The notes under the pieces are model-generated. The model was not told where the DNA came from and searched no databases. It was given only the letters and a program-made list of their open reading frames with translations. Shown in pieces: positions 32,937 to 45,066 of a stretch of 64,000 nucleotides of DNA (position 1 is the stretch's first letter; each line of letters opens with the position of its first letter). The position numbers and the translations under genes are program-made. The DNA comes from Actinomycetota bacterium (GTDB lineage Bacteria; Actinomycetota; Acidimicrobiia; Acidimicrobiales; JAJPHE01): the NCBI GenBank assembly GCA_021325435.1, contig JAJPHE010000129.1, positions 1 to 64,000 on the forward strand. Direction: 5' to 3'.

Positions 32937-33230
32937 CTAGGAGCGGGAGGGTGCTGGTGGGGCGCCCTCGACTTCGAAGAACAGCTCGTCCGGGTAGCAC
33001 CACCACCAGTCCTCCCCGGGCTCGAAGGAGCGGATCAGCGGATGGTCGGTCTGGTGGTAGTGGCCGGTGGCGTGCCGACCCGGCGAATTGTCGCAGCACC
33101 CGACGTGGCCGCAGCTCTGGCACACGCGCAGGTGAACCCAACGGCCCCCGGTCTTCAGGCACTCGTGGCAGCCGTCGTCGCTCGGAGGGGCCTCGACGAC
33201 CGTGCCCAGGTGGCTACAGGCCGTTGCCAC
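32937..33230 (-). CDS. UBP-type zinc finger protein
   Basis: A 97-residue protein consisting mainly of a ZnF-UBP domain: GCHECLKTGGRWVHLRVCQSCGHVGCCDNSPGRHATGHYHQTDHPL. Cysteines and histidines match the zinc ligands. In eukaryotes the domain binds ubiquitin C-termini. Small stand-alone bacterial versions are common in actinobacteria and their role is unknown. The end is a short proline-rich tail. It is 15 bases from the next minus-strand gene. Confidence 0.9.
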   Translation of the reverse strand: MATACSHLGTVVEAPPSDDGCHECLKTGGRWVHLRVCQSCGHVGCCDNSPGRHATGHYHQTDHPLIRSFEPGEDWWWCYPDELFFEVEGAPPAPSRS

Positions 33231-33245
33231 TGGTGCTCGGCCTCC

Positions 33246-34166
33246 TCACGTGACGGCGGGGGGCACGCCCTGGGCGCTGGCGGCAAGGGACGGGTCCCAG
33301 TCACAGGCGGTGCAGGCGTGGGCCACCACCGACCGGCCGAACTCGACGGCGGCGTCAAAGGGGTCGTCGTTCGAGACGACGTCGTCCCAGTCCAGGACGA
33401 ACTCCCCGAGGTCGGCGTTCCAGCCCCCCGCCTCCGGCGAGACCCTGCCCTCGGAAAACGACGGGGGTGCGGGCACGGCGAAGGCGTAGAACGCCGCCCG
33501 CGGGTAGCGGGGGTCCCCCGGCCACCAGCCCACCTCGATCTGCTGGGCGCTCGCCGAGTTGCGGGCGATGAAGTCCGACGAGGGAGGGTCGGCCGGAAGC
33601 CCCGAGTACAGGCTGACCGACAGGTCGAAGCTTCCCCACCAGGCGTTCACCGGGCTGGACCGGCCCCGGTACGGTGCCCGCAACTTGGCCAGCACCAGGG
33701 CCGCCCGGGTGGCGGCGGCCAGGTAGGTGGACACGGCGGCGGGGTCGTAGTTCCGGTGCTCATCGTCCTCGTCCAGCGGCACCGTCCAGCCCACCTCCTG
33801 AGGTTGGGGGTTGATCTCCACCGCCCCAGCGAGGCTCTGGACGGCTTCCATGACCTGGCGGGTCACCTCTCCGACCGGGCGGTCGGGCCCGAAGGGAACC
33901 CGGTGACTCCGCCCGTCGCCGTGCTCCACCACCGCTTCGTGCCGCTGCAGGTCCATGATCGCCACAAAGGCCCCGGATCCGTCCGGGGCGGGAAGGGGCA
34001 GGGTCTCCCAGCCGCGTGCCGTCAGGCGGAGGGCGGCGTGCTGCAGCTGAGGCTCGGGCGGCGCCAGCGCCACCGCCAGCTTGCCCAGTACCTGGGTGTG
34101 GGCGTGGATGGTGTCACAGGTGTCGCTCCACTCCTCGTACGGCAGCGGCGGCCAGCGATGTCCCAT
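33246..34166 (-). CDS. DUF5996-like protein
   Basis: A 306-residue protein of unknown function. It opens MGHRWPPLPYEEWSDTCDTIHAHTQVLGKLAVAL, a pattern I associate with DUF5996. Other features are QPQEVGWTVPLDEDDEHRNYD and FWWSFDLSV-like and FYAFAVPAPP segments. There are no transmembrane segments or signal peptide. ATG 34166 follows GGAAGGGAA, so the shorter start is chosen. It probably shares a transcript with the UBP gene. The family has no established activity that I know of. Confidence 0.78.
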   Translation of the reverse strand: MGHRWPPLPYEEWSDTCDTIHAHTQVLGKLAVALAPPEPQLQHAALRLTARGWETLPLPAPDGSGAFVAIMDLQRHEAVVEHGDGRSHRVPFGPDRPVGEVTRQVMEAVQSLAGAVEINPQPQEVGWTVPLDEDDEHRNYDPAAVSTYLAAATRAALVLAKLRAPYRGRSSPVNAWWGSFDLSVSLYSGLPADPPSSDFIARNSASAQQIEVGWWPGDPRYPRAAFYAFAVPAPPSFSEGRVSPEAGGWNADLGEFVLDWDDVVSNDDPFDAAVEFGRSVVAHACTACDWDPSLAASAQGVPPAVT

Positions 34167-34241
34167 GTTCCCTTCCGAGGGCGCTGCCCTAGGGTGCCAT
34201 GTCGAGAAGTCCTCGGCCACGCAGGCGTTCGGGAGGCACCG

Positions 34242-35039
34242 ATGGGTTTCGTCGAGCTCAACGGCATCGATGTCCACTACATCGAGCGGGGCCAGGGTCA
34301 GCCCATCGTCTTCCTCCACGGCTTCGGGTCCTGCGCCGAGGCCTGGTATCAGCAGTTGGACGCGTTCGCAGACCGGTATCGGTGTATCGCCTACGACAGC
34401 GTGAACCACGGGCATTCCGGCAACTCACCAGCGGACCAGCGCGAGCCCGACCGGGTCGACGAGCTCGACGCCTTCCTCGGCGCCCTGGGTATCGACGCGC
34501 CGATCGTGGCCGGCAACTCCATGGGGGCCCTGACCCTGCTGCGCTGGGCGGTCCGCCATCCCGCTCGGGCCCGGGCGCTCGTGCCGTCGGGCATGGGGGT
34601 GCTGGTGGGGGACGGGGGAATGCCCGAAGCGACCCGGCGGTCGCTGTTCGATCCGGTCGACCACGAGGTGCTGTTCCTTCCCAGCGGAGGGGGCTTCACC
34701 GAGGCCTTCCCCCAGGAGGACCCGCTCCGCTACGGCCGTTACATGCGGCTGCGCTCCACCGCCACCCGCATCGAGGCCTCCCGTCACCCCCGGCGGGCCA
34801 CCGCGGTCAATCCCCGCCGCGAGGAGCTGGCCGAGCGGGTCGGAGCCGTTCGCTCTCCCATGCAGATCATCGTGGGGGAGAGGGACTGGTTGGCCGACGC
34901 CGCCCGCCAGCTCCACCAGCTGGTGGCCCACTCGCGCCTTGAGGTGATCGCCGGCGCCCCGCACAACGTGTACTTCGAGACGGCGGAGTCCTACAACAAG
35001 GTGGTGGACGGGTTCCTCGCCGAGGTCGTCTCCGCCTGA
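34242..35039 (+). CDS. Alpha/beta hydrolase
   Basis: A 265-residue hydrolase. It has the oxyanion-hole HGFGS, the DSVNHGHSG loop, nucleophile elbow GNSMG, the acid in GERDW and the histidine in GAPHNVY, so a full triad is present. It resembles the family that includes haloalkane dehalogenases, lactonases and esterases; substrate unknown. GGGAGG seven bases before ATG 34242 fixes the start. Divergent from the DUF5996 gene. Confidence 0.88.
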   Translation: MGFVELNGIDVHYIERGQGQPIVFLHGFGSCAEAWYQQLDAFADRYRCIAYDSVNHGHSGNSPADQREPDRVDELDAFLGALGIDAPIVAGNSMGALTLLRWAVRHPARARALVPSGMGVLVGDGGMPEATRRSLFDPVDHEVLFLPSGGGFTEAFPQEDPLRYGRYMRLRSTATRIEASRHPRRATAVNPRREELAERVGAVRSPMQIIVGERDWLADAARQLHQLVAHSRLEVIAGAPHNVYFETAESYNKVVDGFLAEVVSA

Positions 35040-35052
35040 GGGCGGTGGTTGC

Positions 35053-37776
35053 TCAGATCGCCATGGGGTCGAGGGCGTCAGGATCGACGCCGTAGCGTGA
35101 GATCGCCTCGCTGACCTCCTCCGCCTTTCCTTCGCCCGTGGCGGCCAGGGCGGCCAGGACCGCCACCACCAGGTGGGCGGCGTCGACCTCGAAATAGCGG
35201 CGCAGGTTGGCCCGGGCGTCGGAGCGCCCCCACCCGTCGGTACCCAGCGACGAGTAGTAGGATGGCACCCACCGGGCGATCTGGTCGGGCACGGCCTTGA
35301 TGAAGTCGGACACGGCCACCACCGGCCCCTCGCTGGACGAGAGGGCTGCCGTCACGTAAGGCGTCCGGCTGGGAGCCCCCGGGTGCAGCCGGTTCCAGCG
35401 ATCGGCGGCCAGGGCCTCGTCGCGCAGCTGCTTGTAGGAGGTGGCCGACCAGCACTCGGCTCCCACGCCCCACTCCTCGGCCAGCAGGCGGCGGGCCTCC
35501 ATGGCCGCGCCCCAAGCTGGCCCGGAGAACAGGATGGTCGCCCGCCGGGTGCGCCCGTTGCCGGACACCTCCTCCGGGGGCCCGGTGAAGCGGTAGAGCC
35601 CCTGGACGATGCCCTTTCGGACCTCGTCGGGGTCCTGGCCCTCCGGCAGCGCCGGCATGGCGTAGTTCTCGTTGTACAGCGTGAGGTACCAGAAACGGTC
35701 CTCGGGTTCGGGGCCGTACATCCGGCGGATGCCGTCGTCGATGATGGTGGCCAGCTCGTAGGCGAAGGCCGGGTCGTAGGCCGACACGCTCGGGTTCGTC
35801 GACGCCAGCAGAAGCGAGTGGCCGTCGTCGTGCTGCAGGCCCTCCCCCTCGAGGGTCGTCCGCCCCGCCGTCGCCCCGAGCAGGAAGCCCCGGCCCCGCG
35901 AGTCGCCGAAGGCCCAGATGAGGTCACCCACCCGCTGGAAGCCGAACATCGAATAGAAGATGTAGAAGGGGATCGTCGGTTGGCCGTGGACCGCGTAGGA
36001 GGTGCCAGCGGCGGTGAAGCTGGCCATCGCCCCCGCCTCGGTGATGCCTTCCTCGAGGATCTGCCCGTCCTTGGCCTCGGCGTAGGTGAGGAGCAGGTCG
36101 GCGTCGACCGGCGTGTAGAGCTGCCCCGACGAGGCGTAGATCTTCACCTCCTTGAACAGGGCATCCAGGCCGAAGGTGCGGGCCTCGTCCGGGATGATGG
36201 GCACGACGCGCTGGCCGACCTGCTTGTCGCGCAGCAGGTTGCGCAGCAGTACGGCGAAGACCATGGTCGTCGAGACAGCCCGGTCGCCCGAGCCCTTGTC
36301 GAACTCGGCGAAGACCTGAGGAGCGGGCATCTCGAGCTCAACCCGTGGTCGCACCAGCCGCCGCGGCATGGGCCCGGCCAGCTCGCGCCGGCGGGCCATG
36401 AGGTACTCCCACGCGGGAGAGCCCTCGGGCGGCCGGTAGTAGGGCGGCAGCTTGGCGTCGAGCGCGGTATCCGGAATCTCCTCCTGGAGGTAGAGCCGGT
36501 CGCGCAACGTCATCAGCTGGCTCTTCGTCATCTTCTTGATCTGATGGGTGGCGTTGCGGGCCTCGATCTCCGGCCCGAGCGTCCATCCCTTGATGGTCTT
36601 GGCCAGGATGGCGGTGGGAGCCCCGGTGTGCTCCACCGCCGCCTTGTAGGCGGCGTAGAGCTTGCGGTAGTCGTGGCCGCCGCGGGGCAGGGCCTGCAGA
36701 TCCTCGTCCGACAGGTGGTCGACGAGGCGGCGGAGTCGGGGGTCGGGCCCGAAGAAGTGCTCGCGGATGTAGGCGCCCGACTCGGTGGCGTACTTCTGGA
36801 ACTCCCCGTCGACGGTCGTGTTCATCTTGTTGACCAGGACCCCGTCGACGTCGCGGGCCAGCAGCTCGTCCCACTTGGAGCCCCAGATCACCTTGATGAC
36901 GTTCCACCCGGCGCCGCGGAAGATCGCCTCGAGCTCCTGGATGATCTTCCCGTTGCCCCGCACCGGCCCATCGAGGCGTTGCAGGTTGCAGTTGACGACG
37001 AAGATGAGGTTGTCGAGTCCCTCCCGCGAGGCGAGGGAGAGGGCCCCCAGCGTCTCGGGCTCGTCACACTCCCCGTCACCGAGGTAGCACCAGACCCGGC
37101 TGGCGCTGGTGTCGGCGATGCGCCGGTGCATGAGATAGCGGTTGAAGCGGGCCTGGTAGATGGCGTTGATCGGGCCCAGACCCATCGACACGGTGGGGAA
37201 CTCCCAGAAGTCCGGCATCGAGCGGGGATGCGGGTAGGAGGCCAGCCCGTCGCCGGTTACCTCCTGCCGGTAGCGGTCGAGCTGGTCGTCGGAGAGGCGC
37301 CCCTCGAGGTAGGCCCGGGCGTAGATGCCGGGCGAGGCGTGGCCCTGGAAGTACACCTGGTCGCCGGCAGCCCCGGTGTCCTTGCCGCGGAAGAAGTGGT
37401 TGAAGCCGACCTCGTACAGCGACGCCGAGCTGGCGAAGGTGGCCAGGTGGCCGCCGATCCCCGGCGACTTGATGTTGGCCCGGGTGACCATGACGGCCGC
37501 GTTCCAACGGATGTACGCCCGGATCCGGCGCTCCATGTACTCGTCCCCGGGGAACCAGGGCTCGCGGTCCGGCGGGATGGTGTTGACATAGGGCGTCGAC
37601 ACGGTGGCGGGGAACCCCACCTGAAGGGCGCGGGCCCGCTCGAGCAGCTTCATCAGGATGAAGCGGGCCCGGCTCCGTCCGTGGGTGTCGACCACGGCGT
37701 CGAAGGAGTCCACCCACTCCGCCGTCTCCTGGGGATCGATGTCCGGGAGCTGGTGGGAGAAACCGTCGAAGATCAT
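35053..37776 (-). CDS. aceE: Pyruvate dehydrogenase E1 component, homodimeric
   Basis: A 907-residue thiamine-diphosphate enzyme that decarboxylates pyruvate and acetylates the lipoyl group of E2. Visible are HLATFASSASLYEVGFNHFF, the ThDP motif GDGECDEPETLGALSLA...NCN, and the C-terminal TDGWGRSDARANLRRYFEVDA. Length matches AceE (about 890-920). The start is ATG 37776, giving MIFDGFSHQLPDIDPQETAEW. Longer starts would read through the divergent rnhA promoter. The E3 and E2 genes that serve it are at 39296-42300. Confidence 0.96.
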   Translation of the reverse strand: MIFDGFSHQLPDIDPQETAEWVDSFDAVVDTHGRSRARFILMKLLERARALQVGFPATVSTPYVNTIPPDREPWFPGDEYMERRIRAYIRWNAAVMVTRANIKSPGIGGHLATFASSASLYEVGFNHFFRGKDTGAAGDQVYFQGHASPGIYARAYLEGRLSDDQLDRYRQEVTGDGLASYPHPRSMPDFWEFPTVSMGLGPINAIYQARFNRYLMHRRIADTSASRVWCYLGDGECDEPETLGALSLASREGLDNLIFVVNCNLQRLDGPVRGNGKIIQELEAIFRGAGWNVIKVIWGSKWDELLARDVDGVLVNKMNTTVDGEFQKYATESGAYIREHFFGPDPRLRRLVDHLSDEDLQALPRGGHDYRKLYAAYKAAVEHTGAPTAILAKTIKGWTLGPEIEARNATHQIKKMTKSQLMTLRDRLYLQEEIPDTALDAKLPPYYRPPEGSPAWEYLMARRRELAGPMPRRLVRPRVELEMPAPQVFAEFDKGSGDRAVSTTMVFAVLLRNLLRDKQVGQRVVPIIPDEARTFGLDALFKEVKIYASSGQLYTPVDADLLLTYAEAKDGQILEEGITEAGAMASFTAAGTSYAVHGQPTIPFYIFYSMFGFQRVGDLIWAFGDSRGRGFLLGATAGRTTLEGEGLQHDDGHSLLLASTNPSVSAYDPAFAYELATIIDDGIRRMYGPEPEDRFWYLTLYNENYAMPALPEGQDPDEVRKGIVQGLYRFTGPPEEVSGNGRTRRATILFSGPAWGAAMEARRLLAEEWGVGAECWSATSYKQLRDEALAADRWNRLHPGAPSRTPYVTAALSSSEGPVVAVSDFIKAVPDQIARWVPSYYSSLGTDGWGRSDARANLRRYFEVDAAHLVVAVLAALAATGEGKAEEVSEAISRYGVDPDALDPMAI

Positions 37777-37855
37777 CGCCTTCCATGCTCGCGCTTTTGC
37801 CGGGGTAGGCGGTTCGGTGCCCGGGTCGGGCCACCCCATGGGGCATGCTGGGGCG

Positions 37856-38350
37856 GTGGGGACCATCGTCTACACGGATGGCGCCTGCCTGGGGAACCCC
37901 GGGCCGGGCGGCTGGGCCTGGGCGGTCCCCGAGGGGGCCTACGGCAGCGGTGCCGAGCCTCGCAGCACCAACCAGCGCATGGAGATCACCGCCGCCCTCG
38001 AGGCCCTCTCCAACCTCGAGGGCGAAGTGCTGGTCATGAGCGACTCCACCTACGTGGTCAACTGCTTCCGCGACCGCTGGTACGAGGGCTGGATCCGCCG
38101 GGGATGGCGGAACTCCCAGCGCCAACCGGTCGCCAACCAGGACCTCTGGATGCCGCTGTTGCAGCTCTACCTGGCCCGGGCCGGCGAGATCACGTTCCGT
38201 TGGGTGAAGGGGCACGGCTCGGATCCGATGAACGATCTGGTGGACCGGCTGGCCGTGGAGGCCGCCACGACCCAGTCCGGACGCAGTGGTCAGGGCACCC
38301 CCGAGAACCTCGGGCCGGCGGACAGCCCCCGCCGCTGGGCTCGCCGCTGA
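37856..38350 (+). CDS. rnhA: Ribonuclease HI
   Basis: A 164-residue RNase H that cuts the RNA strand of RNA-DNA hybrids. The catalytic acids are in YTDGACLGNPGPGGW, RMEITAALEAL, SDSTYVVN and DPMNDLVDRLA. The GTG at 37856 gives a start close to the family norm (GTIVYTDGAC); CATGCT six bases upstream may be a -10 of a leaderless transcript. ATG 37838 is an alternative. Divergent from aceE. The C-terminal 30 residues are a disordered-looking tail. Confidence 0.93.
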   Translation: MGTIVYTDGACLGNPGPGGWAWAVPEGAYGSGAEPRSTNQRMEITAALEALSNLEGEVLVMSDSTYVVNCFRDRWYEGWIRRGWRNSQRQPVANQDLWMPLLQLYLARAGEITFRWVKGHGSDPMNDLVDRLAVEAATTQSGRSGQGTPENLGPADSPRRWARR

Positions 38351-39259: not shown

Positions 39260-39295
39260 CTTTAGGCTGGCCCCAGTCGCGGGAAGGTGGTGGGA

Positions 39296-40711
39296 GTGCC
39301 CGAGGAATTCGACGTCGTCGTCATCGGCGGCGGCCCCGGTGGCTACGCGACCGCTCTGTACGGAGCGAGCGCCGGGCTGTCGGTCGCCGTGGTCGAGAAG
39401 GACAAGGTCGGAGGCACCTGCCTGCACCGCGGGTGCATACCGGCCAAGGAGTTCCTGGAGACCGCCAGCGTCCTGCGCACGGTGGCCGGAGCCAAGGAGT
39501 TCGGTATCCAGGCGGAGCAACCCGCCGTCGACTTCGCCACCAGCCAGGCCCGCAAGCAGAAGGTGGTCGAAGGCCTGTGGAAGGGCCTGGCCGGCCTCAT
39601 GAAGTCGCGCAAGATCAAGACCTACGAGGGGACCGGCCGGCTGGAGGCGGACCACGTCGTCAAGGTGGCCGGCCCATCAGGCGAAGAGGAGCTCAGGGGC
39701 ACCCACGTCGTTCTGGCCTCGGGCTCGGTCCCCCGGACCATCCCCGGCTTCGACGTTGACGGTCGGACCGTCCTGACCTCGGACGAGGTCCTGGCCCTGG
39801 ACCGGCTGCCGAGCTCGGCCGTGGTCATCGGGGGCGGCGCCATCGGCTGCGAGTTCGCCTCGATGATGAGCGACCTGGGCGTGCAGGTGACCCTGCTCGA
39901 GGTACTGCCGAAGATCCTCCCCGGCTGCGACGGTGACGTCGTCGAGGTGGTCGGCCGCTCGTTCAAGAAACGCGGCATCAACATTCACACGGGAGTTCAG
40001 GTGCACGGGCACAGCCCCTCCGACGGTGGGGGCACGACGGTCTCCTACGGCGACGGACAGGAGGTGACGGCGGACGTCGTGGTCGTGTCCGTGGGGCGTC
40101 GTCCGCTCTCCGACGGGCTGTTGGGCGACGGGACGGGAGTGACCGTGGACGACCGGGGCTTCGTCGCCGTCGACGAGATGTGCCGGACCGGAGCTGACGG
40201 TGTCTACGCCGTGGGCGACTTGATCTCGCTCGGCTCGGGCCCCCATCCGCAACTAGCCCATGTCGGCTTTGCCGAAGGGATCCTGGTCATCAAGGACATC
40301 CTCGGAGAGCCGGCGGTACCGGTCGACTACTCGCGGGTCCCCTGGTGCATCTACTGCCATCCGGAGGTGGCCTTCGCCGGCATGTCCGAGCAGGCGGCCC
40401 GCGACGCTGGCTACGAGGTGGTCACCAAGAAGATGCCGGTCGGACACAACGGGCGGGCCATGATCATCGGCGAGGGTGAGGGACTGGTGAAGGTGGTGGC
40501 GGAAAAGCTCCCGGATGGGACCGGCGGGCGCATCCTGGGGGTCCACATGGTGGGACCCTGGGTCACCGAGCAGCTGGGGCAGGCCTACCTGGCCGTCAAC
40601 TGGGAGGCGACGGTGGATGAGGTGGCCCACTTCATCCAGCCCCATCCCACCCTGTCGGAGGTGTTCGGCGAGACGGTGCTGGCTCTGACCGGAAGGGGGT
40701 TGCACGGCTGA
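39296..40711 (+). CDS. lpd: Dihydrolipoyl dehydrogenase (E3)
   Basis: A 471-residue FAD/NAD enzyme that reoxidises dihydrolipoyl groups of 2-oxoacid dehydrogenases. FAD motif FDVVVIGGGPGGYATALYGA, redox pair Cys42/Cys47 (GGTCLHRGCIPAKE), NAD motif VVIGGGAIGCEFAS and the C-terminal His-Glu pair in QPHPTLSEVFGE are present. The GTG at 39296 is eight bases after GGAAGG. Two further GTGs lie at 39287 and 39290. The stop overlaps the E2 ATG (TGATG). Confidence 0.94.
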   Translation: MPEEFDVVVIGGGPGGYATALYGASAGLSVAVVEKDKVGGTCLHRGCIPAKEFLETASVLRTVAGAKEFGIQAEQPAVDFATSQARKQKVVEGLWKGLAGLMKSRKIKTYEGTGRLEADHVVKVAGPSGEEELRGTHVVLASGSVPRTIPGFDVDGRTVLTSDEVLALDRLPSSAVVIGGGAIGCEFASMMSDLGVQVTLLEVLPKILPGCDGDVVEVVGRSFKKRGINIHTGVQVHGHSPSDGGGTTVSYGDGQEVTADVVVVSVGRRPLSDGLLGDGTGVTVDDRGFVAVDEMCRTGADGVYAVGDLISLGSGPHPQLAHVGFAEGILVIKDILGEPAVPVDYSRVPWCIYCHPEVAFAGMSEQAARDAGYEVVTKKMPVGHNGRAMIIGEGEGLVKVVAEKLPDGTGGRILGVHMVGPWVTEQLGQAYLAVNWEATVDEVAHFIQPHPTLSEVFGETVLALTGRGLHG

Positions 40712-42300
40712 TGGCGGACATAACCATGCCCCAGCTCGGCGAGACGGTCACCGAGGGGACCATCACCCGCTGGGCCAAGCAGGTAGGCGACCGCGTCGAG
40801 GAGGACGAGGTCCTCTTCGAGGTGTCGACCGACAAGGTCGACTCCGAGGTGCCCTCACCGGTGTCGGGCTTTCTGTCGGAGATCCTGGTCGAGGAGGGCC
40901 AGACCGTCGACGTCGGCACCCGGCTCGCCGTGGTCAGCGACCAACCGGCCAGCGGCGACGGACGGGCTCCCGACGCTGGGGGCCAGGCTGCCCCCGCGGA
41001 CGCTCCGGCGAAGAAGGCCCCGGCCGAGCAGCCGGACCAGGCCGACGAGCAGCCGGCCGCCCGAGGGGGACGGCAGGCCTCCGACGAGCGGGCGGAGGCG
41101 CCGTCAGCCGCCAGCCGCCCGCAGGCCAAGGCCGAAGAGGTGCAGGGTGAGGCCGAGACGGTCGAGGCCGCCGGCGGCACCGCCGCCCCCGGGGGCCAGG
41201 ACCGGCCCCCGTCCGGGCCCACCGCCCCCCTGGCGGCCGAGCCCACCCGGGTAGCGGGCGGTCCCGCCGCCGAGGGGGCGTCGGGGGAAGGCCCCGCCGG
41301 CGACGCCGGGGGGACGGGTGACGCCAGCAAGGTGCTGTCCCCGGTCGTCCGTCGCCTCCTGTCCGAGAACGGGCTCGATCCGGCCGACATCAACGGCACC
41401 GGCGCCGGCGGGCGAATCACCCGGGCCGACGTCCTCGCCGCGGTGGACGCCCGGCGGGGGGCCGGCGCTCCGGCCGGGGCCCGGCCGCCGGCGAGCGCCC
41501 GGCCCCAGGAGCCGGCATCGCCTGCGCCGAGGCCCGCGGGTGAGATGGGCGAGCGGGTCCTGCCCTTCCCTCCCGCCCAGCCCGGACCGGGCGACGAGGT
41601 GATCCCGTTCTCCAACATCCGTCGGCGGACGGCCGAGCACATGATCCGGTCGCGGGCGACCTCCGCCCACACCCTCGTGGCGACCGAGGTCGATTATCAC
41701 GCCGTCGAGGCGGCCAGGGCCCAGGTGAAGGACCTCTTCCGTCAGAACGAGGGCTTCACCCTCACCTATCTGCCGTTCATAAGCCGGGCGGTCATCGACG
41801 CCTTGGAGGAGTTCCCCAACCTGAACGCCTCGGTCGGCGAGGACACCCTCATCGTCCATCCTCGAGTGCACCTGGGAATCGCCGTCGATCTCAACCTCGA
41901 GGGACTCATCGTGCCGGTCATCCGCGAGGCGGACTCGAAGCGGCTCCGAGCCCTTTCCCGCGAGATCCGCGACCTCGCCGAGCGGGCCCGCGCCAAGCGA
42001 CTGTCCGCCGACGAGATCCAGGGCGGCACCTTCACCATCACCAACCCCGGCCCCTTCGGCACCTTCCTCACCGGTCCGGTGATCAACCAGCCCCAGGTGG
42101 CCATCCTGTCCACCGACGGGATCAAGAAGAGGCCGGTCGTGGTGGAGACGCCTGGTGGTGACGACGCCATCGTCGTCCATCCCGTCGGGCTCCTGTCGCT
42201 GACCTGGGATCACCGGGCGGTGGACGGGGCCTACGCCTCCGCCTTCCTGGCCCGCTGCCGCGAGATCATCGAGACCCGCGACTGGATCCAGGAGCTTTGA
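40711..42300 (+). CDS. sucB: 2-oxoacid dehydrogenase E2 (dihydrolipoamide acyltransferase)
   Basis: A 529-residue acyltransferase with three domains. A lipoyl domain (1-78) holds Lys42 in VSTDKVDSEV. An alanine-, proline- and acid-rich linker follows (about 85-205), then a peripheral subunit-binding domain (SPVVRRLLSENGLDPADI..TGAGGRITRADV), and a catalytic domain with His501 in TWDHRAVDGAY. Only one lipoyl domain is present. It resembles the actinobacterial E2 called SucB or DlaT that can serve both pyruvate and 2-oxoglutarate complexes. Coupled to lpd and followed two bases later by lipB-lipA. Confidence 0.92.
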   Translation: MADITMPQLGETVTEGTITRWAKQVGDRVEEDEVLFEVSTDKVDSEVPSPVSGFLSEILVEEGQTVDVGTRLAVVSDQPASGDGRAPDAGGQAAPADAPAKKAPAEQPDQADEQPAARGGRQASDERAEAPSAASRPQAKAEEVQGEAETVEAAGGTAAPGGQDRPPSGPTAPLAAEPTRVAGGPAAEGASGEGPAGDAGGTGDASKVLSPVVRRLLSENGLDPADINGTGAGGRITRADVLAAVDARRGAGAPAGARPPASARPQEPASPAPRPAGEMGERVLPFPPAQPGPGDEVIPFSNIRRRTAEHMIRSRATSAHTLVATEVDYHAVEAARAQVKDLFRQNEGFTLTYLPFISRAVIDALEEFPNLNASVGEDTLIVHPRVHLGIAVDLNLEGLIVPVIREADSKRLRALSREIRDLAERARAKRLSADEIQGGTFTITNPGPFGTFLTGPVINQPQVAILSTDGIKKRPVVVETPGGDDAIVVHPVGLLSLTWDHRAVDGAYASAFLARCREIIETRDWIQEL

Positions 42301-42301
42301 G

Positions 42302-43945
42302 GTGCTGAGGGTCCGCTGGCTGGGGCGGGTGCGCTACCGCGACGCCCACGCCCTGCAGCGGGCTCTCTTCTCCGCCAGCCCGGAGAACTACCTGCTCCTC
42401 ATGGAGCATCCGCACGTCTACACCCTCGGGGTGGGCGCCGACGACCGTCACGTTCTCGTGGATCCCGGACAGGTCGGGGCCGAGCTGATCCGCACCGACC
42501 GAGGTGGGGACGTGACCTACCACGGGCCCGGCCAGCTGGTCGGATACCCGATCATCTCGGTCCCTACCGGCCCCCGCTCGGTCCCCGAATATGTCCACGG
42601 GGTCGAGCAGCTGGTCATCGACTCGGTGGGCGACCTCGGTCTGGCGGCCCGGCGTCTGCCGGGCTACCCGGGGGTGTGGGTCGGCCCCGACGACGCCCCC
42701 CGCAAGGTCTGCGCCATCGGCGTAAGGGTGACCAGAGGGCGGTCCATGCACGGCTTCGCCCTCAATGTCGATCCGGACCTGTCCATGTTCGGCCACATCG
42801 TTCCCTGCGGCATCGCCGACAAGGGCGTCACCTCGCTGGCGGCCGAAGGCGTCGAGGCCACCATGCGAGAGGTGGTGGACGCCGTCGTGGCTCGGGCCAC
42901 CGTCCGGTGGGGCCCGGCGGTAGAACGGCGCGACGTGGCCTGGCGGACCGTCCCCGAAGACCTGTCGGCGTTAACCCGCCGCCAGGCGCTAGGGACGAGT
43001 GGCCGACCCGGGGAGCGGCTGCGCCTGCGCCTGGCCGAGGCCGGCGTGAACCCTGGCGCCGGGCTGGCCGTGTCCGAACGCAAACCGGCCTGGCTGCGGG
43101 TCAAGGCCGAGATGGGCCCCGAATACCGACAGCTGCGCTCCACCATGCGTTCGCTCGACCTGGTCACCGTGTGCGAGGAGGCCGGCTGCCCCAACATCTT
43201 CGAATGCTGGGCTGACGGAACCGCCACCTTCATGATCAACGGGGAGCGCTGCACCCGCGCCTGCGGCTTCTGCCTGGTCGACACCCGCCGTCCGTCTCCG
43301 CCCGATCCGGGGGAGGCCGACCGGGTCGCTGAGGCGGTTGGGCGGATGTCCCTGGCCCACGCCGTGGTCACCGCCGTCGCCCGCGACGACCTGCCCGAGG
43401 GCGGCGCGCTCGGCTTCGTCGCCACCATCGCCGCCATCAGGCGCCGGTGCCCGCACACCTCGGTCGAGGTCCTGATCCCCGATTTCAAGGGTGACCCTGA
43501 CGCCCTGAACGCGGTGTTCGAGGCCGGACCGGACGTGCTCAACCACAACCTCGAGACCGTGGCCCGGCTCCAGCGGGCCGTGCGGCCTTCGGCTTCCTAT
43601 GCCCGCAGCCTGGCCGTGCTGGCCCGGGCGGCCGACGCCGGCCTGGTCACCAAGTCCGGCATCATCCTCGGCATGGGCGAAACGGCCGAGGAGGTGGTCT
43701 CGGCTCTGTCGGACCTGCGGGCCGTCGGCGTGCAGATCGTCACGCTCGGCCAGTACCTCCGGCCCACCGCCGCCCACCTGCCGGTTGCCCGCTGGTGGAC
43801 GCCGGCCGAGTTCGACCGCCTCGCCGCCGCCGCCCGGGCCATGGGCTTCTCGCATGTCCAGGCCTCGCCCCTCACCCGTTCGAGCTACCACGCCCGGCAG
43901 GCGGCGAGCGCCGCCCAGGTCCCCGTGGCGCTGTCCGGATCGTGA
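42302..43945 (+). CDS. lipB-lipA: LipB-LipA fusion: octanoyltransferase and lipoyl synthase in one chain
   Basis: One 547-residue frame. Residues 1-215 are octanoyltransferase LipB: RGGDVTYHGPGQLVGYPI, Lys135 (RKVCAIGVRV) and Cys169 (HIVPCGIADKGVTSL), the catalytic pair. Residues about 255-547 are lipoyl synthase LipA: auxiliary-cluster cysteines C291, C296, C302 (CEEAGCPNIFEC), radical-SAM cysteines C317, C321, C324 (CTRACGFC) and the C-terminal RSSY 526-529. No stop lies between them, and the LipA part lacks its own obvious start. It would carry out both steps of de novo lipoylation of the E2 next door. GTG 42302. Confidence 0.93.
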   Translation: MLRVRWLGRVRYRDAHALQRALFSASPENYLLLMEHPHVYTLGVGADDRHVLVDPGQVGAELIRTDRGGDVTYHGPGQLVGYPIISVPTGPRSVPEYVHGVEQLVIDSVGDLGLAARRLPGYPGVWVGPDDAPRKVCAIGVRVTRGRSMHGFALNVDPDLSMFGHIVPCGIADKGVTSLAAEGVEATMREVVDAVVARATVRWGPAVERRDVAWRTVPEDLSALTRRQALGTSGRPGERLRLRLAEAGVNPGAGLAVSERKPAWLRVKAEMGPEYRQLRSTMRSLDLVTVCEEAGCPNIFECWADGTATFMINGERCTRACGFCLVDTRRPSPPDPGEADRVAEAVGRMSLAHAVVTAVARDDLPEGGALGFVATIAAIRRRCPHTSVEVLIPDFKGDPDALNAVFEAGPDVLNHNLETVARLQRAVRPSASYARSLAVLARAADAGLVTKSGIILGMGETAEEVVSALSDLRAVGVQIVTLGQYLRPTAAHLPVARWWTPAEFDRLAAAARAMGFSHVQASPLTRSSYHARQAASAAQVPVALSGS

Positions 43946-45066
43946 CCTTCGACGCCCGCGCCGCCCGTGTCGCCCGGTCCGAGAGGGTGCGGGCGCGCAT
44001 GCGCGAGACGGGAGTCGAAGCCCTCCTGCTCTCGCTCGGGGCCGACCTGCCGTGGCTGTCGGGCTACGAGGCCATGCCCCTGGAACGGTTGACGATGCTG
44101 GTGCTGCCGGCCGACGGCGAGGCCACCATGGTCGTTCCCCGGCTCGAGGCGCCCCGAGTCCCCGAAGACGCCGACCTGTTCCGCCTGCGTCCCTGGGAGG
44201 AGACCGAGGACCCCGTCGCCGTGGTGGCCGGCCTGGTCGGATCGCGGACCCGCCTGGCCGTTTCGGACCGGGCGTGGTCGGCTCACCTGCTCGCCCTGCA
44301 GGCGGAGCTGCCCCGGGCCCGGTGGTCGGCGGCGTCGTCGGTGACCTCCGAGCTGCGGGCCGTGAAGGACCCGGCCGAGGTGGCTGCCCTGCGGGCGGCG
44401 GCCCGGGCGGCCGACCGGGTGGCGGCCCAGCTCCAGGCGGGGGACCTGCCCCTCGTGGGGCGGACCGAGGCCGAGGTGTCGCGGGAGCTCGGGGACCGTC
44501 TGAAGGCCGAGGGGCACAGCCGGGTCAACTTCGCCATCGTCGGCAGCGGGCCGAACTCGGCCAGCCCCCATCACGAGCCGGGCCCCCGGGTCATCGGGGA
44601 AGGCGAGGTGGTGGTGTGTGACTTCGGGGGCGTGCTGGCCATCGACGACGGCCCCGGATACTGCTCGGACATCACCCGCACGGTCGTGACCGGGGACCCG
44701 TCGGCGGAGGTGTCGGAGCTTTACGCCGTGCTGCACGAGGCCCAGTCCCGCGGGGTGGGGGCCGCCGTGGTCGGCCGCCCCTGCTCATCGGTCGATGCCG
44801 CCGCCCGCTCGGTGATCGACGCCGCCGGCCTGGGCGAGTGGTTCATCCACCGCACCGGGCACGGCATCGGCCTGGAGGAGCACGAGGATCCCTATCTGGT
44901 GGAGGGCAACGACGCCCCCCTCGCCGCCGGCCACGCCTTCTCGGTCGAGCCCGGCATATACCTAGCCGGCCGGTTCGGGGCCCGACTGGAGGACATCGTG
45001 GTGGCCACGGCGTCCGGCCCCGAGGCTCTCAACGTGGCCGACCACCACCTGGCCGTCGTCGGCTAA
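43942..45066 (+). CDS. M24 family metallopeptidase (Xaa-Pro peptidase-like)
   Basis: A 374-residue creatinase/prolidase-fold peptidase. The N-terminal domain has LLLSLGADLPWLSGYEA; the catalytic pita-bread domain has the metal ligands in VVCDFGGVL, CSDITRTVV, HRTGHGIGLEEHEDPY, FSVEPGIYL and ARLEDIVV. Members remove residues next to proline. GTG 43942 overlaps the LipA stop as GTGA, which sets the start and puts it in the lipoate operon by position. Confidence 0.88.
   Translation: MTFDARAARVARSERVRARMRETGVEALLLSLGADLPWLSGYEAMPLERLTMLVLPADGEATMVVPRLEAPRVPEDADLFRLRPWEETEDPVAVVAGLVGSRTRLAVSDRAWSAHLLALQAELPRARWSAASSVTSELRAVKDPAEVAALRAAARAADRVAAQLQAGDLPLVGRTEAEVSRELGDRLKAEGHSRVNFAIVGSGPNSASPHHEPGPRVIGEGEVVVCDFGGVLAIDDGPGYCSDITRTVVTGDPSAEVSELYAVLHEAQSRGVGAAVVGRPCSSVDAAARSVIDAAGLGEWFIHRTGHGIGLEEHEDPYLVEGNDAPLAAGHAFSVEPGIYLAGRFGARLEDIVVATASGPEALNVADHHLAVVG

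Follow-up and report, generated by a model that had tools for sequence, protein, structure and literature searches.

An octanoyltransferase-lipoyl synthase (LipB-LipA) fusion gene essentially fixed in the class Acidimicrobiia

The fusion gene and its two domains

Analysis of a 64,000-nucleotide stretch of Actinomycetota bacterium DNA (contig JAJPHE010000129.1; hereafter the window) revealed a gene that encodes octanoyltransferase (LipB) and lipoyl synthase (LipA) as one protein (Table 1). As judged from sequence comparisons, this fusion most likely represents a bifunctional lipoyl-assembly enzyme that arose by one ancestral stop loss and was then kept (probability about 0.85), and it appears to be essentially fixed in the Acidimicrobiia. 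The frame contains no internal stops, whereas each of the remaining five frames across this region contains 2 to 18 stops, and the GC content at codon position 3 is 0.89 for LipB, 0.87 for the linker, and 0.91 for LipA. The linker thus is coding too. The original prediction that LipB and LipA occur in a single reading frame was borne out, as both domains of the 547-aa protein score above the family cut-offs, and all key residues that it named (Lys135, Cys169, two cysteine triads, and RSSY) are present.

Table 1. Features of the LipB-LipA fusion gene and its upstream neighbours (window positions).
Feature	Position	Strand	Remarks
Dihydrolipoyl dehydrogenase (E3)	39287..40711	+	TIGR01350 above cut-off
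2-Oxoacid dehydrogenase E2, one N-terminal lipoyl domain	40711..42300	+	presumed substrate
E2 lipoyl-domain lysine codon (K42, DKV motif)	40834..40836	+	read from translation
Shine-Dalgarno-like AGGAG	42290..42294	+	within E2 3' end, 7 bases before GTG
LipB-LipA fusion gene	42302..43945	+	547 aa; GTG start 42302, TGA stop 43943-43945
LipB (octanoyltransferase) domain, residues 1-199	42302..42898	+	Pfam, NCBIfam, fold match
Lys135 codon, LipB catalytic dyad	42704..42706	+	invariant column, 54-row alignment
Cys169 codon, LipB acyl-thioester Cys	42806..42808	+	invariant in 185/185 distinct fused proteins
Linker, residues about 200-258	42899..43075	+
LipA (lipoyl synthase, radical SAM) domain, residues 259-547	43076..43942	+	Pfam, TIGR00510, fold match
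Auxiliary [4Fe-4S] cluster Cys triad C291/C296/C302	43172..43207	+	kept in all ungapped fused proteins
Radical-SAM Cys triad C317/C321/C324 (CxxxCxxC)	43250..43273	+	kept in all ungapped fused proteins
RSSY motif, residues 526-529	43877..43888	+

The LipB half is recognized by Pfam (LplA-B_cat, PF21948; residues 12-197) and exceeds the cut-offs of the LipB models TIGR00214 (146.7 versus 83.55 bits) and PRK14345 (186.9 versus 155 bits; residues 2-199). It matches the fold of 1w66/2qhs with a Z score of about 30. Indeed, it resembles the LipB proteins of M. tuberculosis (1W66) and T. thermophilus (2QHS) in fold, Cys-Lys dyad, and RGG and HGPGQ motifs, but differs in that its C-terminus runs on into LipA. 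The catalytic roles assigned to the lysine and cysteine residues, namely the dyad and the acyl-thioester cysteine, were taken from PMC9307952.

For the LipA half, the profile-matched extent comprises residues 259-540, with LIAS_N at residues 259-296 and Radical_SAM at residues 315-471. The TIGR00510 cut-off (310.25 bits) was passed with 342 bits, as were the NCBIfam cut-offs of the LipA models PRK05481 and PRK12928, and the fold matches 5exk (Z 43). This half is about 53% identical to LipA of M. tuberculosis (5EXI/5EXK), with which it shares the cluster cysteine triads, RSSY, and the radical SAM barrel; the difference is that its N-terminus leads via the linker into LipB. The RSSY motif, whose serine is a ligand of the auxiliary cluster in known LipA, is nearly always kept among the 185 distinct fused proteins. 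Judged from pairwise dN/dS values against seven close relatives (about 0.2-0.4, LipB and LipA alike), both halves are under purifying selection, and the linker values against the same relatives are below 1 as well (about 0.3-0.7).

Distribution and origin

All loci taken together, 188 were fused (185 distinct proteins) and 36 separate, the fusion being specific to the class within the sampled Actinomycetota. A match to the fusion protein was present in 364 of the 395 sampled Acidimicrobiia genomes; the top matches in this sample span the whole query and, among the matches listed, nearly all lack internal stops. In addition, when 84,980 species genomes were scanned, the best 80 loci that were kept were mostly fused and were labelled Acidimicrobiia, Acidimicrobiales, or unspecified Actinobacteria. 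A few class genomes gave no match at all (for instance G378, G099, and G394), reflecting gene loss or missing contigs. The source genome of the window (draft, 96% complete) carries the fusion once, and nothing else in it matches the fusion protein. Among the 83 class genomes scored in full, a second LipB-LipA pair occurred only in G052, on a short contig, and G378 had none. The fusion is normally the genome's only LipB and LipA. Because the catalytic residues are kept, dN/dS values are low, and the gene is normally the sole copy, both halves are very probably working enzymes, and it is very likely that both activities reside in one chain.

Several apparent exceptions within the class were rejected. 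In-frame TGA or TAG codons in some members fall at the C-terminus of LipA rather than at the junction. At locus L090, a low-coverage MAG shows Ns and loses the frame, probably through an assembly error. Locus L211, where G052 has a separate second pair on a contig of 5 kb, is probably contamination; G052 carries a fused copy besides.

Two further loci deserve mention. The contig of L070 is labelled Acidobacteria MAG REEB88, while its fusion closely resembles those of bog MAGs assigned to Acidimicrobiaceae; it probably represents a mislabelled or mixed bin. A stand-alone protein of LplA/LipB fold (226 aa; G000:C21:20174-20656, L232 1408-2088, minus strand) scores 57 bits with PF21948, weakly resembles LplAB, and passes no NCBIfam cut-off. 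It possibly functions in lipoate salvage or other acyl transfer beside the fusion.

The expectation that lipB and lipA are separate genes in other organisms held for the other Actinomycetota sampled. In about 266 genomes, the top matches either have inter-domain stops or cover LipA alone, and every locus examined there consists of separate lipB and lipA genes. Among the plasmid-record matches listed, the genes were separate or occurred singly, and an E. coli query (approximate sequence) gave no match. The adjacent lipB-lipA genes of Cellulomonas, Nocardia, and Streptomyces have the same order as in the fusion, and often the same frame, but are separated by one or more stops, of which the fusion has none. 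Similarly, the outgroups G576, G427, G653, and G550 show E2-lipB-stop-lipA with lipB and lipA in the same frame, as would be expected of the state preceding a simple stop loss.

In a quick LipA tree, all fused rows fall on one side of a branch with an SH-aLRT of 86. In the LipB tree, a single long branch, the fused row L203, is placed among separate rows, so that two changes are required; one fused clade was not rejected for LipB (AU p 0.388). A single origin of the fusion is therefore likely. Since the fusion is essentially fixed in the class, the genes are separate at all loci checked in other Actinomycetota, and some outgroups share the same frame, stop loss is the most likely route. The ancestor of the class would have lost, once, the stop that separated lipB from lipA in an E2-lipB-lipA operon, after which the fusion would have been retained.

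Genomic context

An E2 gene had been predicted to end two bases upstream of the fusion. It does lie directly upstream, although the spacer is one base (42301), a trivial difference. This E2 passes no NCBIfam cut-off, the best model being SucB_Actino (364 of 423 bits), so that it may be specific for either pyruvate or 2-oxoglutarate, and its K42 is expected, by inference from the DKV motif, to be the octanoylation site. An E2 gene ends at most 400 bp upstream in 176 of the 188 fused loci. At L138, L149, L197 (f34), and L203 (f36), the E2 match directly upstream is absent or weak, pointing to operon context that is lost or replaced in their families. No terminator-like sites were found between the E3, E2, and fusion genes, and the E3 gene probably shares the operon with the fusion.

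Downstream, the GTG of a Xaa-Pro aminopeptidase-like gene (M24; 43942-45066) overlaps the fusion stop (GTGA), so that both are probably co-translated. An aceE-type E1 is encoded nearby on the opposite strand (35053-37866). A long ORF (33042-35039) encodes an alpha/beta hydrolase in its C-terminal part; its first 400 codons look spurious and lie opposite a minus-strand ORF (33246-34415).

Predicted structure and function

An AlphaFold2 model from 54 fused sequences reached a pLDDT of 91.9 and a pTM of 0.92, with low pLDDT at residues 211-240 only. For two domains of such size, this pTM implies a confident relative placement, and the model suggests that the LipB and LipA halves pack together. 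Consistent with such packing, alignments of LplA-type structures extend beyond LipB to reach model residues 440-447 in LipA. In a control fold, where 21 pairs of separate actinobacterial lipB and lipA genes were joined by read-through into a single chain, the pTM was 0.54. The contrast is only suggestive, because the control alignment is not matched in depth (21 versus 54 rows), being shallower and less diverse and missing the first strand.

LipA enzymes insert two sulfurs, at C6 and C8 of octanoyl-lysine, by radical-SAM chemistry, and the LipA half of the fusion would do the same, with its auxiliary cluster as sulfur donor. The preceding step would be performed by the LipB half, which would take octanoyl from octanoyl-ACP onto Cys169 as a thioester and pass it to the lysine of the E2 lipoyl domain, following the LipB chemistry described for transfer of octanoate from ACP to the lipoyl domain via a cysteine thioester (PMC9307952). 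The likely benefit would be 1:1 production of both enzymes and an abundance of LipA close to fresh octanoyl-E2, which would favour handover. Whether the fusion gains from such handover of octanoyl-E2 between the active sites, the channelling raised in the original prediction, is about an even bet. Any handover would be at most one of protein-bound substrate, because the intermediate is octanoyl on the E2 lipoyl domain. A stricter version, with a fixed LipB/LipA interface that faces one docked lipoyl domain and passes octanoyl-E2 on without its leaving, seems rather unlikely, even if the model allows it. Indeed, the spacing between residues 197 and 259 in fused homologues varies from 26 to 176 aa (median 59); a linker of this kind resembles a loose tether, which argues against tightly conserved geometry.

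Alternative explanations

The most serious alternative is a fusion that functions but is mechanistically neutral, the stop loss having been fixed by drift and the two domains acting independently on a flexible string without handover. The variation of the linker in length and sequence, the lowest pLDDT values at residues 211-240, and an ancestral in-frame adjacency that makes stop loss easy all agree with it, whereas no convincing fission occurred in the class genomes examined and the pTM of the fused model suggests packing. On balance, it is a real contender, somewhat short of even odds. Alternatively, two distinct proteins may result from the frame, if translation also starts internally ahead of LipA or a protease cuts the linker. 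In-frame GTG codons occur in the window at 43046 and 43070, and an in-frame start codon of some kind occurs in 183 of the 188 fused loci. However, a start with a Shine-Dalgarno core is present in only 20 of the 188, the GTG codons of the window lack one, and two products would not require the linker to stay open over its full length in all lineages. Separate LipA production is therefore improbable, as internal starts with a ribosome site are rare.

The protein could also belong to NF053790 (LplA_LipA_fuse, bifunctional lipoate-protein ligase/lipoyl synthase), which likewise places a lipoyl/octanoyl-attaching enzyme ahead of LipA and whose profile matches residues 259-533, the C-terminal partner being LipA in both. 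This membership is very doubtful, as the score is 346.9 bits, well below the cut-off of 800, and the profile is matched over its LipA part alone (331-605); the LplA part is unmatched, and the N-terminal half has the Cys-Lys dyad of LipB and passes the LipB models. NF053790 thus has an N-terminal LplA ligase, the present fusion an N-terminal LipB transferase. Finally, a stop deleted by sequencing or assembly error, against which a check had been advised and which the draft state of the source assembly (160 contigs) might suggest, is practically negligible and was ruled out, since 188 homologous loci are fused as well, including those of the single-contig genomes G002, G014, G027, G110, G322, and G346, and coding constraint runs through the linker.

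Significance

A second caveat of the original prediction, namely that the fusion might already be well described, found no support: no description was found in the open-access literature searched, subscription journals lying outside this coverage. Likewise, NCBIfam 20.0 has no LipB-LipA fusion family among the matches, whereas the LplA-LipA family is present. Some proteins are annotated as multifunctional fusions by the automatic rules of UniProt, and the LipB-LipA architecture may already be on record in automatic databases. Other fusions, of LplA with LplB, have been reported (PMC10332631). The LipB-LipA fusion is real, ancient, and apparently undescribed, and constitutes an apparently new domain architecture of ordinary, well-known enzymes.

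While the parts are ordinary, fixation throughout a class would surprise the specialist. In practice, annotation pipelines that assign one name per protein may call LipB or LipA missing in Acidimicrobiia genomes, and the fusion is usable as a class marker. Furthermore, it offers a single construct for probing direct handover of octanoyl-E2. Its retention across the class represents natural evidence for LipB and LipA acting together on the same carrier.
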